64,000 nucleotides of DNA from the NCBI RefSeq assembly GCF_001975985.1, contig NZ_MTQF01000001.1, positions 828,943-892,942 on the forward strand. The letters are read 5' to 3'. Shown one piece after another: positions 44,451 through 50,836 of this stretch; within the stretch, counting starts at the first letter, position 1; every line of letters begins with the position of its first letter. The DNA is from [Flexibacter] sp. ATCC 35103. Lineage in GTDB: Bacteria; Bacteroidota; Bacteroidia; Flavobacteriales; Flavobacteriaceae. Both the position numbers and the translations under genes were made by a program. Below the pieces are notes generated by a model that saw only the letters and a program-made list of their open reading frames with translations, did no database searches and was not told the DNA's origin.

Positions 44451-44680
44451 AAATATATTTTGAAGTAATAATTTTATTTTATACAGGGTGCAAAAATAAT
44501 GATTATTATTCTAAAATAGAGTCAGCCAATTATTTTTATTGAAAAATATTCTGAATCCCCATTTTCTGCCGTTTTTATTGTATAAACTTATCGTATTTAA
44601 CGTAAGGAATTATCAAATCAATATCCTTAAAACTGAATATAATCAATCAAAAGCAGCTGAAAAATGACTTTTATCATAAT
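44451..44680. other. divergent intergenic region before nirK
   Basis: Contains the upstream regions of the oxoamine synthase (minus) and nirK (plus). I see no FNR/DNR-type TTGAT-N4-ATCAA site; the notable element is the Rrf2-type box just downstream (44681). Confidence 0.4.
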
Positions 44681-44700
44681 AAAAGATAAAATTGTCTTTT
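44681..44700. promoter_or_regulatory. Rrf2/NsrR-type box upstream of nirK
   Basis: AAAAGATAA-AA-TTGTCTTTT, an inverted repeat matching in 8 of 9 positions, 43 bp before the nirK start. The same architecture occurs at 49695 (before ric) and 50798 (before rrf2). A degenerate -7 element (TAAAATTG) lies inside it. Confidence 0.7.
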
Positions 44701-44743
44701 AAATTTACTTCAGATTCAAAAACTAAAACAAAAACCATTTATT

Positions 44744-46177
44744 ATGAAAAAAAAGTATATTATTAAAATTAAAGCCTCTCTGTTTGTTCTGTTTTTCCTC
44801 TTGCTGATGTCATGTGAGAAAGAAAAAACTAATTATTCTGACATCGTAACTGAAGGAGAAATGCAAGCCGAATTAACCTCTCCTCCATTAGTACCTAAAC
44901 CAGTTGGAAACAGAACAGCGATGAAGCTAAAAATCAACATGGAAATTAAGGAGCAGGAAGCAACAATGACTGATGGTGTAACGTATACCTACTGGACATT
45001 TGGCGGATCTGTTCCCGGAAGTTTTATCAGGACAAGAGTTGGGGATGAAGTCGAATTTCATTTAAAAAACCATCCGGATAATAAATTGCCCCACAATATC
45101 GATTTGCATGCTGTTACAGGTCCTGGCGGTGGTGCAACCTCATCATTAGTAGCGCCTGGTCACGAAAAAGTATTTAGTTTTAAGGTAATTAATCCTGGCT
45201 TATATGTATATCATTGTGCAACTGCTCCTGTTGGAATGCATATTGCCAACGGAATGTACGGTTTGATTCTGGTTGAACCTGAAGGCGGATTACCTCCGGT
45301 TGACAAAGAATATTATGTAATGCAGGGTGATTTTTATACTCAAGGCGAATATGGAGCAAAGGGTCATCAGCCTTTTGATATGACTAAAGCTGTTAAAGAA
45401 ACTCCTGATTATGTTGTTTTTAACGGAAAAGTAGGTTCCCTTACTAACGGAAATGAGCTTACTGCAAAAGTGGGAGAAACGGTTCGTTTGTTTGTTGGAA
45501 ACGGTGGTCCAAATCTGGTCTCGTCTTTTCATGTCATTGGAGAAATCTTTGATAATGTTCATGTAGAAGGCGGTGCACTTATCAATAAAAATGTTCAAAC
45601 TACCTTAATCCCTGCCGGAGGTGCTGCGATTGTAGATTTTAAAGTAGAAACTCCCGGTAATTTCATTTTAGTTGATCACTCCATTTTTAGAGCATTCAAC
45701 AAAGGCGCTCTGGGAATCTTAAAAGTCGAAGGTGCTGAAAACAAAAATATTTATTCCGGAACAATTCAGGAAGGAATTTATTTGCCGGAAGGAGGAACAA
45801 TTCAAAACATGCCGGTAAGCGAGTCTTCAAAAACAATTACACCAAAAAGAACTGCAGCAGAAAGAATAAAAATTGGCAAAGAGATTTTTGGAACTACTTG
45901 CTTTGCCTGTCACCAATCTGAAGGGCAAGGAATTTCGAATAGTTTTCCTCCTCTTGCAAAATCAGATTATCTAAATGCAGATTCAAAAAGGGCAATCAAA
46001 ACAATATTGCATGGCTTAACTGGTGAAATTACAGTAAATGGTCAAAAATTTAATAACATAATGCCGAGCCAAAATTTATCTGATGATGAAATTGCAAATG
46101 TTATGACCTATATATATAACAGTTGGGGAAACAATAAAACAGTTGTTACACCAGAAATGGTAAAATCCCTGCGATAA
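44744..46177 (+). CDS. nirK: copper nitrite reductase fused to cytochrome c, lipoprotein
   Basis: 477 residues. Reduces nitrite to NO outside the inner membrane. Lipobox LLMSC (Cys24). Two cupredoxin domains (~55-330): type 1 Cu ligands H117, C158, H166, M171; type 2 ligands H122, H157, H312; catalytic D120 and H263. A C-terminal cytochrome c domain (~368-460) has C386-x-x-C389-H390 and candidate axial M440 in [10 protein letters not shown]. The fusion supplies its own electron-entry haem, alongside the separate azurin at 49765. nirV and a SCO gene follow at 11 and 15 bp. A 20-bp Rrf2-type palindrome lies in the promoter region. Confidence 0.96.
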
Positions 46178-46188
46178 TATCAACCAAT

Positions 46189-46959
46189 ATGTATAAAGGT
46201 ATTTTAATAGCGGTACTTTTCTTCGCTCTGACTGGATTGATGAGCGCACAGGAAAATAAAATGGTTCAAATACGAGAGGGATCTTTTATTCCTCTTTATG
46301 GAACTACTGCAAAAAAACCAGTAAACGTAAAAACCTTTTTTATAGATATCTATCCTGTTACAAATAGTGATTTTTTAATTTTCATAAAAAAGAACCCAGG
46401 TTTTAGCAAATCTAAAATAAAAGGAATTTTTGCAGACAAAAGTTATCTGTCTTATTGGGAAAGCGATTTTGATTTTGGAAATATAAATCCTAAATCACCG
46501 GTAACAGGCATTTCATGGTTTGCTGCTAAAAAATATTGCGAATGTCAGGGAAAACGGCTACCAACCATCGACGAATGGGAATATGTGGCGATGGCAGATG
46601 AAAAGAAAATTGATGCGAGAACTAAAACAGAATTCAATAAATACATTTTGTCATGGTATGAAAAATCTAAAACCTACGAAAATCCGGTTGGAAAAACTTT
46701 CAAAAATCACTGGGGAGTTTATGACATGCATGGTTTAGTCTGGGAATGGACAGCTGACTTTAACAGCATTTTTTTATCCGGAGAATCCAGAAAAGATAAA
46801 AGTGATGATAAAAACCTGTTTTGCGGCGGTGCATCTGTCAACGCTACAGACTTAATGAATTATGCCGCTTTTATGCGTTATGCTTTTAGAGGCAGTCTTA
46901 AAGCACAATATTCAACAAGAAATCTGGGGTTTAGATGTGCAGGCAACACAAAAAAATAA
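46189..46959 (+). CDS. nirV: NirV-like SUMF1/formylglycine-generating-enzyme-family protein
   Basis: 256 residues with a signal peptide (~1-21, LMSAQ). SUMF1 fold: MVQIREGSFIPLYG, FFIDIYPVTNSDFLIFI, SPVTGISWFAAKKYCECQGKRLPTIDEWEYVA, GVYDMHGLVWEWTADF, and the closing STRNLGFRCAG. Proteins of this type (NirV) are encoded next to nirK in other denitrifiers; the precise role is not settled. The cysteine pair used by true formylglycine-generating enzymes is not evident, so a structural or copper-site maturation role is more likely than sulfatase activation. Same operon as nirK (11-bp gap). Confidence 0.9.
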   Translation: MYKGILIAVLFFALTGLMSAQENKMVQIREGSFIPLYGTTAKKPVNVKTFFIDIYPVTNSDFLIFIKKNPGFSKSKIKGIFADKSYLSYWESDFDFGNINPKSPVTGISWFAAKKYCECQGKRLPTIDEWEYVAMADEKKIDARTKTEFNKYILSWYEKSKTYENPVGKTFKNHWGVYDMHGLVWEWTADFNSIFLSGESRKDKSDDKNLFCGGASVNATDLMNYAAFMRYAFRGSLKAQYSTRNLGFRCAGNTKK

Positions 46960-46974
46960 TTTTAAATATCTAAA

Positions 46975-47571
46975 ATGAAAAAAATAATACTGGCACTTTT
47001 TTTAATCGCTTTAAACCTGCAAAGTTGCAAAGAACCAAAAGTCACTGCCGCCGCATCAAAAGAAAAACCAATTACTGATTTATCAATCTACAATCTACCA
47101 TCAAAATGGACCAATCAGAACGGTAAAAACATTGAGCTAAAGAGCTTAAAAGGAAATGTTCTTGTTATGGTAATGATTTATACTTCGTGTAAAGCAGCCT
47201 GTCCCAGATTAGTAGCAGATATGAGAGCAATTGAGGAAAAACTGGATAAAGACACTAAAAAAAATGTAAAACTTATTTTAGTCAGTATTGATCCTGTAAC
47301 TGATACGCCACAGAAATTAAAATCATTTGCAATGGCCAATAAGCTCAATAACGATCCCTGGATTTTATTGCGTTCTACAGAAGATAATACAAGGGAATTT
47401 GCGGCAGTTTTAGCTGTTAATTACAAACAAATATCTCCTATGGAATTCTCTCATTCTAACATTATAAGTGTCTTTAATCCTGACGGAGAATTGATATACC
47501 AACAAGAAGGCCTGGCAGTAAATAATAAAAAAACAGTTGAAACAATAAATAAGGAAGCTAAAAAAATTTAA
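46975..47571 (+). CDS. SCO/SenC-type copper chaperone lipoprotein
   Basis: 198 residues. Lipobox LQSC (Cys18). Thioredoxin fold with copper ligands C72 and C76 (CKAAC) and H160 (FSHSNI), plus VSIDPVTDTPQKLKSFA, the typical SCO segment. It likely delivers copper to NirK (or another Cu enzyme) in the periplasm, in keeping with its place as the third gene of the nirK operon. A hairpin terminator follows. Confidence 0.93.
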   Translation: MKKIILALFLIALNLQSCKEPKVTAAASKEKPITDLSIYNLPSKWTNQNGKNIELKSLKGNVLVMVMIYTSCKAACPRLVADMRAIEEKLDKDTKKNVKLILVSIDPVTDTPQKLKSFAMANKLNNDPWILLRSTEDNTREFAAVLAVNYKQISPMEFSHSNIISVFNPDGELIYQQEGLAVNNKKTVETINKEAKKI

Positions 47572-47587
47572 ATAGGTTGATTAGTTC

Positions 47588-47627
47588 AAAACAAGAGTAG
47601 ATTTTAATAAATTGACTCTTGTTTTTT
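47588..47627. terminator. bidirectional terminator
   Basis: AAAACAAGAGT pairs with ACTCTTGTTTT, with T-runs on the plus strand. The right arm overlaps the last codons of the convergent membrane-protein gene. Confidence 0.75.
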
Positions 47628-48854
47628 ATTTAAAATTGAAATCATAATCAACATTATACTCACTACAATCAAAACTCCTGCAATAAATATTCCTTCAAAA
47701 TATCCGAAAAGCTTTCCCCAGCCTAAATAAAAAAGCCCGCCCTGAACAAAAAGTAAAAGTTCATTCATGCTGTATCCCAGAATAAAAGTTTTAATTCCGT
47801 AACGCAGTATTTTATATTTATTATCCAGTATTTTATTTTCAATTAATACTCCAAATAAAATTCCGGTAATAATACCAAGCGCAGTTAAGTGAATAAATCC
47901 AATTACAAAATTTCTGATTTGATGAGAAACTTCAGCAAGATCAGGCATTAAATTTAATAATTGAATACCTATTTTTAAAACTAACGAAAATAAAACCAGA
48001 CCATAAATATATTTTGTTGTTGTATTTAAATTGCTTTTAAAATAGGACAAATGAGGTTTAACCATTTTATAGAAATACACAAAAGCTAAAATTTGTAATA
48101 AAACTCCAAAAATATTAATCCATTTTAGCATTTCGTTTTTAACATACCAGCTTACTGGAAGCGCCATTGTTAAAAACGTTGATAGTATTAATAAAACAAA
48201 GAATTTATTAAACATCTCTTCTTTCAGGTTTCTTTTAGCTTGTTTTAAAAACAAAGCAAGAACAGCAAATAAAAACCATCCATTAAACTGAAAATGCAGA
48301 AAGAATTGAATTGCAATTTGATAAAATGCATTTTGTTGCCCCAGCATACTTAATGCCGGTCCTAAACACCAGACGCCAAAAGTTGAAAAAACCATGAATA
48401 AAATAGCAGCTGATAAAAGTTTACTTTCCGGAGTTTTCTCCTTGTAAGTATCTTTCCAGACCAATATGCAAAAAACATAACTTAATAAAATATGCGTTGT
48501 TGAAAATACAATCGAAAAAAAAGCATATCCTTGAAGAGGAAAAGAAATCATCATACCAATAACAGTCAACTCCGTTATCCAGAATAATTGATTGTAAATG
48601 GGTTTACACCTTTTATCTTTCGGGTTATCTTTCGGGATAAATAAGTAAACGATTAAAACATAAATTGTCATATAAACCCAACCTAGCATCGCTACATGTG
48701 AATGTGCATGAAGCAGGAAACTATAATTTATACTACTAAAATGAAATAGTGTTACAAATCGCATCAATAACCCCATAATTGAGGCTATTAAAAAATTGAA
48801 AAAACAACATAATACCCAACTTTCAACGGTGTTTATTTTAAATAAATCTCTCAT
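47604..48854 (-). CDS. polytopic membrane protein with conserved-looking histidines, haem-copper-oxidase-like
   Basis: 416 residues, about 12 helices. Histidines cluster in membrane segments: H49-A-H51-S-H53 in LLHAHSHVAMLGW, H121, H187 in FLHFQFNGW, H322 in FIHLTALG. The HAHxH...GW and HFQFNGW patterns resemble subunit I-like proteins of the haem-copper oxidase/NO reductase superfamily, but no Cu-site triad or full helix set for a true oxidase is evident. In this cluster it might bind haem, sense or handle NO, or help NirK. Its stop lies inside the nirK-operon terminator. It follows ric after a hairpin at 48869. Confidence 0.75.
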   Translation of the reverse strand: MRDLFKINTVESWVLCCFFNFLIASIMGLLMRFVTLFHFSSINYSFLLHAHSHVAMLGWVYMTIYVLIVYLFIPKDNPKDKRCKPIYNQLFWITELTVIGMMISFPLQGYAFFSIVFSTTHILLSYVFCILVWKDTYKEKTPESKLLSAAILFMVFSTFGVWCLGPALSMLGQQNAFYQIAIQFFLHFQFNGWFLFAVLALFLKQAKRNLKEEMFNKFFVLLILSTFLTMALPVSWYVKNEMLKWINIFGVLLQILAFVYFYKMVKPHLSYFKSNLNTTTKYIYGLVLFSLVLKIGIQLLNLMPDLAEVSHQIRNFVIGFIHLTALGIITGILFGVLIENKILDNKYKILRYGIKTFILGYSMNELLLFVQGGLFYLGWGKLFGYFEGIFIAGVLIVVSIMLIMISILNKKQESIY

Positions 48855-48868
48855 TTGTTTTTAAATAA

Positions 48869-48917
48869 AAATGCACCAACTACAATCCGTTTTTAGCATG
48901 ATTTAGTTAGTGCATTT
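48869..48917 (-). terminator. hairpin between ric and the membrane protein
   Basis: AAATGCACCAACTA (48869-48882) pairs with TAGTTAGTGCATTT (48904-48917), one mismatch, followed on the minus strand by TTTTATTT. It can end the ric transcript; since the next gene starts 15 bp on, it may also work as an attenuator. Confidence 0.65.
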
Positions 48918-48938
48918 ATTCTAAATTATTATTATTTC

Positions 48939-49661
48939 TTAAGCAAATTCTTCTTCCAGAACAACTGCTTTATTAAACAGAATATTATTTTCAAGATGAA
49001 TGTGTTTATGCAAATCTTCTTCAAATTCTTTTAGCATTGCAAAAGTTACTTTATAAGTCGTACATCCATCACTTGGTGCAGTATAATTATTGGTTATACT
49101 GGCAATTTCCCTAAAGCGATCTCCCTCATTATCATGCTCCTGCATCATCATCGCGATTGGGTTAGATACAGTACCAAAAGAAGGCTGAGTCAGGATTCCA
49201 TGTTCTTCTTTAGTTTTTACCATTCTTTTTATGAAAGGAAACAACATTAATTCCTCTTTTTTCATGTGCTGTGCCAATTCCCCGATACCTGCTGTAAAAA
49301 GTTCATTTATTCTGAATAATTCAGGATGAGCATCACCATGTACTTTGCAAAGTTTATCTAAAAACTGTTTCAGGATAATCGATTTATCTTCAACATAACG
49401 ATGATGTGTTTTTTCGATATAATCAACCAATAAATCTAATGGCCATGAATTAAAATCTATTCCGTTACTATTTTCAGATTCTAAAACATCAATCAGGTTT
49501 TGCACCAAAACATCTGAATCAATATTTTGTTTTTCACATACTTCGGTAAGGATCCTGTTTCCTTTACAGCAAAAATCAATTTGATATTTAGTAAATACTG
49601 CAGCTGTTCTAAAATCTTGTGCTACAAATGATCCAATTGTTTTATTTTTTAAATTTTCCAT
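48939..49661 (-). CDS. ric: Ric (YtfE/ScdA) di-iron repair protein
   Basis: 240 residues, cytoplasmic. N-terminal ScdA domain (TIGSFVAQDFRTAAVFTKYQIDFCCKGNRILTEVC), then a hemerythrin-like four-helix bundle with iron ligands from the HHRYVE, HGDAH, HMKKEE, MMMQEHDNEGDRF and HKHIHLENNILF motifs. It repairs iron-sulfur clusters damaged by NO or oxidants. It has its own Rrf2-type box 33 bp upstream and lies directly behind the azurin gene. Confidence 0.95.
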   Translation of the reverse strand: MENLKNKTIGSFVAQDFRTAAVFTKYQIDFCCKGNRILTEVCEKQNIDSDVLVQNLIDVLESENSNGIDFNSWPLDLLVDYIEKTHHRYVEDKSIILKQFLDKLCKVHGDAHPELFRINELFTAGIGELAQHMKKEELMLFPFIKRMVKTKEEHGILTQPSFGTVSNPIAMMMQEHDNEGDRFREIASITNNYTAPSDGCTTYKVTFAMLKEFEEDLHKHIHLENNILFNKAVVLEEEFA

Positions 49662-49694
49662 TTTTTTTTTAATTTATTATTATTCATTTTTAAT

Positions 49695-49714
49695 AAAAGA
49701 TAATTTTGTCTTTT
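49695..49714. promoter_or_regulatory. Rrf2/NsrR-type box upstream of ric
   Basis: AAAAGATAA-TT-TTGTCTTTT, an inverted repeat with 8 of 9 positions matching and the same 2-bp spacer as the boxes before nirK and rrf2. It is 33 bp before the ric start. Confidence 0.7.
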
Positions 49715-49764
49715 ATTTCTTCATTAAAAAACTCTAACCTGTAAACAGCATTAGAGCTTATTAT

Positions 49765-50280
49765 TTATTCAACAATTAATACACCTTTCATCATGGCTAC
49801 ATGCCCTGGAAAAGTACATAAAAAATTGTATGTCCCTTTTTTATCAATTGTAAACTGAATAGTATCCTCTTCTCCGCCTCCCAGTAATTTAGTATGAGCT
49901 ATAATCGAAACTTTTTCAGAAGCAGGAATATAATCTGTTTCTTTGGCTGTAATAGCTTTTGCAGCAAAAGCAGCTTCATCTGTTCCTTCTTGTAAAATAA
50001 CAAGATTATGCCCCATCGCTTCCTTTGGTATCTGACCAACATGTTTTAGCGTTAAGGTAATAGGTTTTCCGGCAGTAGCTCTTAATTCTGCTTTATTAAA
50101 TTGCATCTGGTCATTACCTTCAATAACCAAATCATTGCTGACAACTTCTGCCTGTGATTCAGAATCTTCTGTTTGATTAATTTCTGACGACTCAGTTGTA
50201 GTAGTATCTTTTTTTCCACACGATGTTATTGCTAACATTCCTAATAGTACAATAGCCGAAATTTTAACTTTTTTGTTCAT
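49765..50280 (-). CDS. azurin-family blue-copper lipoprotein
   Basis: 171 residues. Lipobox AITSC (Cys21), an acidic Thr/Ser-rich linker, then a cupredoxin domain. Copper ligands are H91 (AMGHNLVI), C155, H160 and M164 (FLCTFPGHVAMMKG), matching the azurin spacing. Likely electron donor to NirK or its cytochrome domain. It starts 24 bp after the rrf2 gene and is surely cotranscribed with it. Confidence 0.95.
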   Translation of the reverse strand: MNKKVKISAIVLLGMLAITSCGKKDTTTTESSEINQTEDSESQAEVVSNDLVIEGNDQMQFNKAELRATAGKPITLTLKHVGQIPKEAMGHNLVILQEGTDEAAFAAKAITAKETDYIPASEKVSIIAHTKLLGGGEEDTIQFTIDKKGTYNFLCTFPGHVAMMKGVLIVE

Positions 50281-50304
50281 TTCTACGTATTTAAATTATA
50301 ATAT

Positions 50305-50754
50305 TTATTCGTTTTTATTTAATATTTTCAAATGAAAATCTCCTGATTTTATGCTTAAAGCTAGTTCTTCCAGCGAAGTATTCGTTAACATTGCTACGAG
50401 TAATTCGCGTATTTTTTTAAATTCATGATGCACAGGACAAGGATGAACCTCAGAACATTCTTTTAACCCTATTCCGCAGCCTTTATAAATAGTATCTCCA
50501 TCGATGGCATCGACGATATTAATTAATTTTATAGACTTTAAGGCTTCTGTAGAAATTTCGAATCCTCCTCCTACTCCTTTTGCCGAACCTATAATATTGC
50601 TTTTCGTTAAAATCTGCATTATTTTGGCCGTAAAAGGTTCCGGAGAATCAATTTCTTTAGCTACATCTTTTATTCCTACCCTGATTCCTTTAGACGAATT
50701 AGCAGCAATAAATATAGAGGCTCGAATACCATATTCGCACGCTTTTGAAAACAT
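50305..50754 (-). CDS. NsrR-like Rrf2-family regulator with Fe-S cysteines
   Basis: 149 residues. N-terminal winged helix with EYGIRASIFIA and DVAKEIDSPEPFTAKIMQILTKSNIIGSAKGVGGGFEI (~1-70), a dimer helix, and three cysteines C93, C100, C106 in KGCGIGLKECSEVHPCPVHH that fit a [4Fe-4S] cluster. In NsrR, NO attack on the cluster relieves repression. Here it is followed by azurin and flanked by ric and nirK, so an NO-responsive role is the best inference. Its own promoter contains the same palindrome as those of nirK and ric. Confidence 0.92.
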   Translation of the reverse strand: MFSKACEYGIRASIFIAANSSKGIRVGIKDVAKEIDSPEPFTAKIMQILTKSNIIGSAKGVGGGFEISTEALKSIKLINIVDAIDGDTIYKGCGIGLKECSEVHPCPVHHEFKKIRELLVAMLTNTSLEELALSIKSGDFHLKILNKNE

Positions 50755-50797
50755 AACAATAGATTAAATTCATTACAAATGTATACAAACACATATT

Positions 50798-50817
50798 AAA
50801 AGACAAATTTATCCTTA
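50798..50817. promoter_or_regulatory. Rrf2/NsrR-type box upstream of rrf2
   Basis: AAAAGACAA-AT-TTATCCTTA, third copy of the motif, 43 bp before the rrf2 start. It covers the -7 element of the rrf2 promoter, as expected for autorepression. Confidence 0.7.
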
Positions 50818-50836
50818 ATTAATTTTACGTGACAAA
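50804..50836 (-). promoter_or_regulatory. Bacteroidota promoter of rrf2-azurin
   Basis: On the minus strand: TTTG (50833-50836), 21-bp spacer, TAAATTTG (50804-50811), an exact match to TTTG-N(17-23)-TAnnTTTG. The -7 element lies within the palindrome at 50798. Confidence 0.7.

Follow-up and report, generated by a model that had tools for sequence, protein, structure and literature searches.

Three palindromic boxes in the genome of [Flexibacter] sp. ATCC 35103 are, in our judgement, likely to be the operators of the Rrf2 protein encoded at 50305-50754, which would act as an iron–sulphur (Fe-S), nitric oxide (NO)-sensing repressor of rrf2-azurin, ric and nirK-FGE-SCO. They lie in a stretch of 64,000 nucleotides (contig NZ_MTQF01000001.1, positions 828,943 to 892,942), hereafter the window. 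The boxes are conserved among relatives, sit on predicted promoters and co-occur with this rrf2 gene; sequence comparison makes it very probable that this Rrf2 protein uses the box as its operator and that the regulon is one of NO metabolism. Each box is a strandless 24-bp frame with a 2-bp centre, and the frames span 44679-44702 for the nirK operon (20-mer core 44681-44700), 49693-49716 for ric (core 49695-49714) and 50796-50819 for rrf2-azurin (core 50798-50817). The initial annotation had reported the palindromes at these cores, 33-43 bp ahead of start codons; all three are exactly there, and the 20-mers end 43 bp (nirK), 33 bp (ric) and 43 bp (rrf2) before the start codon.

The exact palindrome, AAAAGAYAANNTTRTCYTTW, occurs in the whole 5.68 Mb genome only at the nirK, ric and rrf2 sites. 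Likewise, the consensus of other genera, WWWWRGAYAANNTTRTCYWWWW, searched with at most one mismatch, matched exactly the three sites in the window, while three matches were seen in none of 100 shuffled windows (mean 0.15). When 32 rrf2 promoters from other genera of the Flavobacteriaceae were turned into a weight matrix, it placed the same sites at ranks 1, 2 and 3 of the window (16.2, 16.1 and 10.8); rank 4 scored 10.7, and the nirK site (10.8) is marginal if taken alone. To obtain training sites, 40 regions were taken from the 81 genomes of the family in which ric was matched; eight without a nearby rrf2 of at least 45% identity gave no site. The sites were aligned on the core GAYAANNTTRTC, exact in 19 of the 32, which seeded the inner part of the matrix but not the six outer positions on each side. 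Across these genera the box carries 1.14 bits of information per column, as against 0.13 upstream and 0.42 downstream. When up to two mismatches were allowed, the genome scan gave 75 strand hits versus 99 for the reversed control; there was no excess, and such looser genome matches are therefore chance.

The pattern holds beyond this genome. The genus was sampled with 121 genomes, and Ric is present in 62 of them. The exact palindrome was found at 23 places in 19 genomes (reversed control, 2), and 22 of these places are associated with rrf2, ric, nor or nirK. The sole exact box elsewhere, in a genome without this rrf2 orthologue (G065), lies inside a coding gene that we take to be gpsA. The genome, genus and window-shuffle counts thus place the exact pattern above random frequency, as the proposal in the initial annotation demanded. 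Upstream scans, with gene starts set by script at the ATG nearest the match, gave box scores of at least 8 for norC in 19/19 cases (mostly sites common to the divergent ric) and for qnor in 16/19; nirK reached 8 in 22/35 and 5 in 30/35. Control regions of gltB, GNAT, FGE and SCO genes together scored at least 8 in 0/96 cases and azurin in 0/23; kbl and NYN, whose intergenic regions are also those of nirK and rrf2, were for that reason unusable as controls.

Conservation before the nirK, ric and rrf2 orthologues thus bears out that proposal, and extends it to the NO reductase genes qnor and norCB. In many species a gene for a quinol-dependent NO reductase lies between azurin and ric with the box ahead of it, and in another species group the box separates the norCB operon from a divergently oriented ric-nrdD-nrdG...rrf2 operon. 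Outside the genus, rrf2 and ric are adjacent in most cases, and the box before rrf2 reads AATTARGAYAANNTTRTCYTAATT. Among the named records, the best 80 of 234 loci, the box precedes rrf2 in 64 of 79 (one was too short); in the 15 lacking it rrf2 follows nrdD-nrdG, with ric upstream in 14. The same best 80 loci include boxes before rrf2 outside the family, elsewhere in its order and class (L224, L225, L229, L230, L232 and L233), weak ones in L231 and L237, and no box before rrf2 in L234-L236 and L238-L241; in the distant Rrf2 group L239-L241, which has His for Glu at position 7, none was seen in the 150 bp before the gene. Four Flavobacterium loci (L184, L185, L186 and L187) hold a further pair of rrf2 and ric genes; the box there is a variant, for instance ATAATGGACAAATTTGTCCATTAT, and may represent a second specificity. 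In one species group (L072:10662-13672 and similar) genes for an anaerobic ribonucleotide reductase, by our reading nrdD and nrdG, follow ric; they may belong to the same regulon.

Presence of the box also tracks presence of this rrf2. Profile scores of rrf2 in the genus fall into two groups, at least 149 bits or below 55. Of the 54 ric genomes with an upper-group rrf2, 47 have the box at their ric operon, versus 0/7 without one (Fisher p 8e-6). In 11 genomes ric and rrf2 are on separate contigs or over 15 kb apart, and 8/11 still have the box at ric (G009, G012, G023, G031, G032, G067, G080 and G084), as against the same 0/7 (p 0.004), so linkage alone does not explain the co-occurrence. These p-values overstate independence, since the genomes are related and several of the unlinked ones are close relatives; the table leaves out G069 (a ric fragment), and for L157 the box counted is shared with nirK. 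The notion that the box simply travels with rrf2 fits G013 and G119, where ric lacks it and it stands in the interval from norC to rrf2, but is ruled out by genomes in which rrf2 is distant and the box is still at ric or norC.

The regulator itself (149 amino acids, minus strand) is recognized by the Rrf2 superfamily models TIGR00738 (74.4 bits; cut-off 73.3) and Pfam PF02082 (74.6; cut-off 30), and the superfamily model is the only curated family model that it passes. Among the matches listed it is 97% identical to the Rrf2 protein of Flavobacterium aquidurense RC62. Its AlphaFold model is a winged-helix Rrf2 fold with a mean predicted local distance difference test score of 90.6. Cys93, Cys100 and Cys106 are invariant in 45 sequences, Glu7 is kept in at least 90% of them, and the C-X6-C-X5-C spacing was found in 56/56 proteins compared. 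An earlier claim of three cysteines at NsrR-like spacing thus stands as to the cysteines and falls as to the spacing, which is X6-X5 and not the X5-X5 of Streptomyces coelicolor NsrR (ScNsrR). The ScNsrR cluster is held by Cys93, Cys99 and Cys105 together with Asp8 of the other subunit, which Arg12 bridges (PMC5411485). If helix 1 aligns without gaps, Glu7 would fall at Asp8 and Arg11 at Arg12; the profile alignment opens with position 4 on NsrR residue 5. Both residues are invariant in a 12-row Flavobacterium alignment; more widely sampled sequences often have Lys at position 11.

Several observations weigh against reading the boxes as operators of an NO-sensing Rrf2 repressor. The core of the matrix was first noticed in the window sites, so that the matrix depends partly on them, and in 120 family genomes a degenerate pattern gave 31 places versus 36 for the reversed control, again no excess (outside the window genome, 12 of 28 places were within 10 kb of ric). 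Five of the 35 genus nirK regions score below 5. There is no box at ric in 7 of the 54 rrf2-bearing genomes (G013, G040, G044, G057, G059, G062 and G119), and in G040, G044, G059 and G062 rrf2 is near ric all the same; G057 keeps its box at rrf2. Some unlinked rrf2 genes have no box of their own (e.g. L170, L172 and L174), and autoregulation is therefore not universal. Binding by Rrf2, repression as opposed to activation, the Fe-S cluster, NO as the effector and the identity of the activator at nirK are what we infer. Finally, Cys6 is nearly invariant too, which makes the fourth cluster ligand uncertain, and iron, O2 or redox state could be sensed instead of NO, as in RirA, IscR or RsrR.

This last point carries the alternative that survives best, namely that this Rrf2 protein does use the box as its operator but responds to Fe-S supply, iron, O2 or redox, with NO acting only indirectly. 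The regulator misses the cut-offs of the NCBIfam models for NsrR (21.2 bits versus 182 for the equivalog), IscR (40.8 versus 207.6), RirA (39.2 versus 193) and CymR (25.9 versus 195), as well as that of the Xanthomonas-type SUF regulator (53.7 versus 110.7), and the SUF regulator, IscR and RirA models all score above NsrR. The best structural matches are RsrR with Foldseek (rank 1, E 6e-7), where fold alone is no proof of RsrR membership, and CymR with VIA-align (Z of 16.3, followed by IscR 14.5, RsrR 13.6 and NsrR 13.6). The regulon would further include azurin, SCO and the FGE-domain gene, joined in relatives by anaerobic ribonucleotide reductase. An N-terminal Cys has been suggested as a ligand in RirA (PMC5863699), and by likeness Cys6 could serve as a rival fourth ligand here. 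However, the boxed genes make NO, reduce NO or repair NO damage, and the acid–base pair matches Asp8–Arg12 of ScNsrR by position. We consider a non-NO signal possible but rather unlikely.

The promoter of nirK adds a second motif. In F. psychrophilum, TAnnTTTG occupies -12 to -5 of sigma-A promoters (PMC9723704). The nirK counterpart is a -7-like element, TAAATTTA (44700-44707, plus strand), which begins 9 bp past the box centre, and an exact TAnnTTTG was found there in 14/30 genus loci; the nirK box spans approximately -33 to -10 and overlaps the core promoter. Its centre lies 20 bp downstream of that of a strandless CRP/FNR-like palindrome, ATGACTTTTATCAT (44664-44677; also written ATGAYNNNNRTCAT), the sole such site in the window, which is conserved and had been overlooked in the initial annotation. 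This site would be near -41 of nirK, the usual place of an activator that contacts the polymerase. The motif RTGAYNNNNRTCAY, which we take to be of the CRP/FNR type, occurs within 200 bp of nirK in 36/44 loci (0.09 expected from shuffles), and in 25/44 its centre is exactly 20 bp ahead of that of the best box match. It is also found upstream of norC (13/21), ric (29/104), rrf2 (6/93) and kbl (9/24), the last sharing the nirK intergenic region, and was not seen upstream of qnor (0/22), FGE (0/30), SCO (0/32) or gltB (0/23). FNR-like regulators named HcpR2 have been described beside hcp in Bacteroides (PMC1274295).

Since this motif is evidence of at least one further regulator at work, and binding by Rrf2 is deduced from the pattern of occurrence, the boxes might be read by some other protein, their co-localisation marking a denitrification island and no more. 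Yet the box follows this rrf2 even where the two are unlinked (the 8/11 versus 0/7 above), and we hold this explanation to be improbable.

At rrf2 the conserved promoter is TTTG-N20-TACATTTG, running from 50807 down to 50776 on the minus strand, with its TTTG (50804-50807) inside the box as the -33 element and TACATTTG (50776-50783) as the -7 element. The latter begins 24 bp past the box centre in 20/32 other genera and 21/22 Flavobacterium loci; the box spans approximately -48 to -25, and a TTTG usable as a -33 element is present in 22/32 other genera. A promoter of the form TTTG-N21-TAAATTTG had been proposed instead. That sequence is present, but its TTTG is kept at that place in 0/32 other genera, and we rejected it in favour of the N20 form with its conserved -7 element. 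The positions of the boxes at rrf2 and nirK are consistent with repression by blocking of the polymerase. That the palindromes are chance repeats of an AT-rich window, where degenerate matches do occur at control frequency, or else promoter or terminator parts with no operator role, is very unlikely given the conservation, to the point of being negligible: three sites arose in 0/100 shuffles, the box is conserved far above its flanks in 32 genera, and at rrf2 it lies upstream of the predicted transcription start and so is not an RNA hairpin.

If the boxes are operators of the Rrf2 protein, a dimer with an intact cluster would bind AATTARGAYAANNTTRTCYTAATT-like boxes overlapping the core promoter and block RNA polymerase, at rrf2 by occupying the -33 region and at nirK by occupying the stretch between the activator site and -7. 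NO would attack the cluster, the protein would leave the DNA, and the NO-linked genes would be expressed. At nirK the CRP/FNR-type activator site 20 bp upstream would supply a second input, such that nirK would need the activator signal as well as relief by NO.

The genes concerned are laid out as nirK-FGE-SCO on the plus strand and as rrf2-azurin, ric and a membrane protein gene on the minus strand. The nirK gene (44744-46177) encodes a C-terminal cytochrome c domain, and its product passes the NCBIfam NirK model (352 versus 296 bits); Ric and azurin pass their own models. It is followed after 11 bp by an FGE/SUMF1-domain gene (46189-46959), presumably NirV-like, and after a further 15 bp by a gene for a SCO1/SenC copper protein (46975-47571); the FGE/SUMF1-domain gene is kept between nirK and SCO in other genera. 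On the minus strand azurin (49765-50280) starts 24 bp after rrf2, has no box of its own and is probably in the same operon. The ric gene (48939-49661) encodes a di-iron Fe-S cluster repair protein. Downstream of it, here as in many relatives, lies an unannotated membrane protein gene (47604-48854); its product has no Pfam or NCBIfam match, and homologues near ric are ~30-85% identical.

In sister species qnor separates azurin from ric and stands under the same box, and the window genome has nirK. A search for qNor in ten genomes found none in nine, including the window genome (G000), and was positive in G004; a cNor query, run without a positive control, gave no match in the window genome. The box that drives qnor-ric in the sister species would thus drive ric without an NO reductase here.

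Flavobacteria often have partial denitrification pathways, and a defined box and regulator make the control of their NO and N2O genes testable. That Rrf2 genes are linked to flavobacterial denitrification is already published: Rrf2 regulators are enriched on clade II nos metagenome scaffolds, many of them assigned to Flavobacteriales, and Rrf2 control was, according to the excerpts of that paper, known only in Proteobacteria and Firmicutes (PMC6264515). As here, those genes lie near denitrification genes in the same bacterial order; unlike here, the gene is nosZ and not nirK, nor or ric, and the excerpts give no operator or regulon. Our searches of open-access literature found no NO-responsive regulon described for flavobacteria and no operator for their Rrf2 proteins. 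The main text of PMC1274295 has no Cytophaga or Flavobacter and mentions Bacteroides only for HcpR2, and that of PMC9723704, on F. psychrophilum promoters, names no Rrf2, nirK, nitrite or Crp. Of the other sources, PMC8510549 has, in its excerpted part, only MalR predictions for its Flavobacteriales genome, and PMC13404960 deals with an Rrf2 protein of Lachnospiraceae.

Among characterized Rrf2 proteins, IscR and the Xanthomonas-type SUF regulator have the same fold and sequence-model scores above that of NsrR; those scores are, however, far under the cut-offs, and the present gene is linked to NO genes. RirA likewise has three Cys and a conserved N-terminal Cys (PMC5863699), but the boxed genes here are not iron-uptake genes. 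RsrR, the best Foldseek match, also binds inverted repeats (PMC5015018); in contrast to the present system, these are 11-3-11 repeats, its targets concern NAD(P)H or glutamate, and sequence identity is ~20%.

NsrR of E. coli, Neisseria, Bacillus and Streptomyces shares the Rrf2 fold, the three Cys and an acidic residue in helix 1. Its regulon comprises NO genes, including nirK, norB, dnrN and, in S. coelicolor, nsrR itself (PMC1274295, PMC5411485, PMC9338935), and the boxes described here likewise stand before genes of NO metabolism (nirK, qnor, norC and ric), which they would regulate. The operators differ: the box is AATTARGAYAANNTTRTCYTAATT, whereas the published NsrR consensus is gATGyAT-N5-ATrCATc (PMC1274295). 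With up to three mismatches that consensus matched the window six times, against 9.6 expected, and at none of the three promoters, as expected from the earlier suggestion that the box is unlike the proteobacterial one; the cysteine spacing, too, is C-X6-C-X5-C and not X5-X5 as in ScNsrR. The regulator as proposed works like NsrR, yet falls outside the NsrR model, and control of nirK, nor and ric by NO through such a protein is what the boxes suggest. With somewhat less confidence than we attach to the operators themselves, we favour the view that it belongs to a separate Rrf2 subfamily, found across Flavobacteriaceae and in other families of the class, that would play the part of NsrR in Bacteroidota, with an operator of its own, its own ligands (Glu7 or Cys6 with C-X6-C-X5-C) and, at nirK, a two-input switch shared with a CRP/FNR-type activator.

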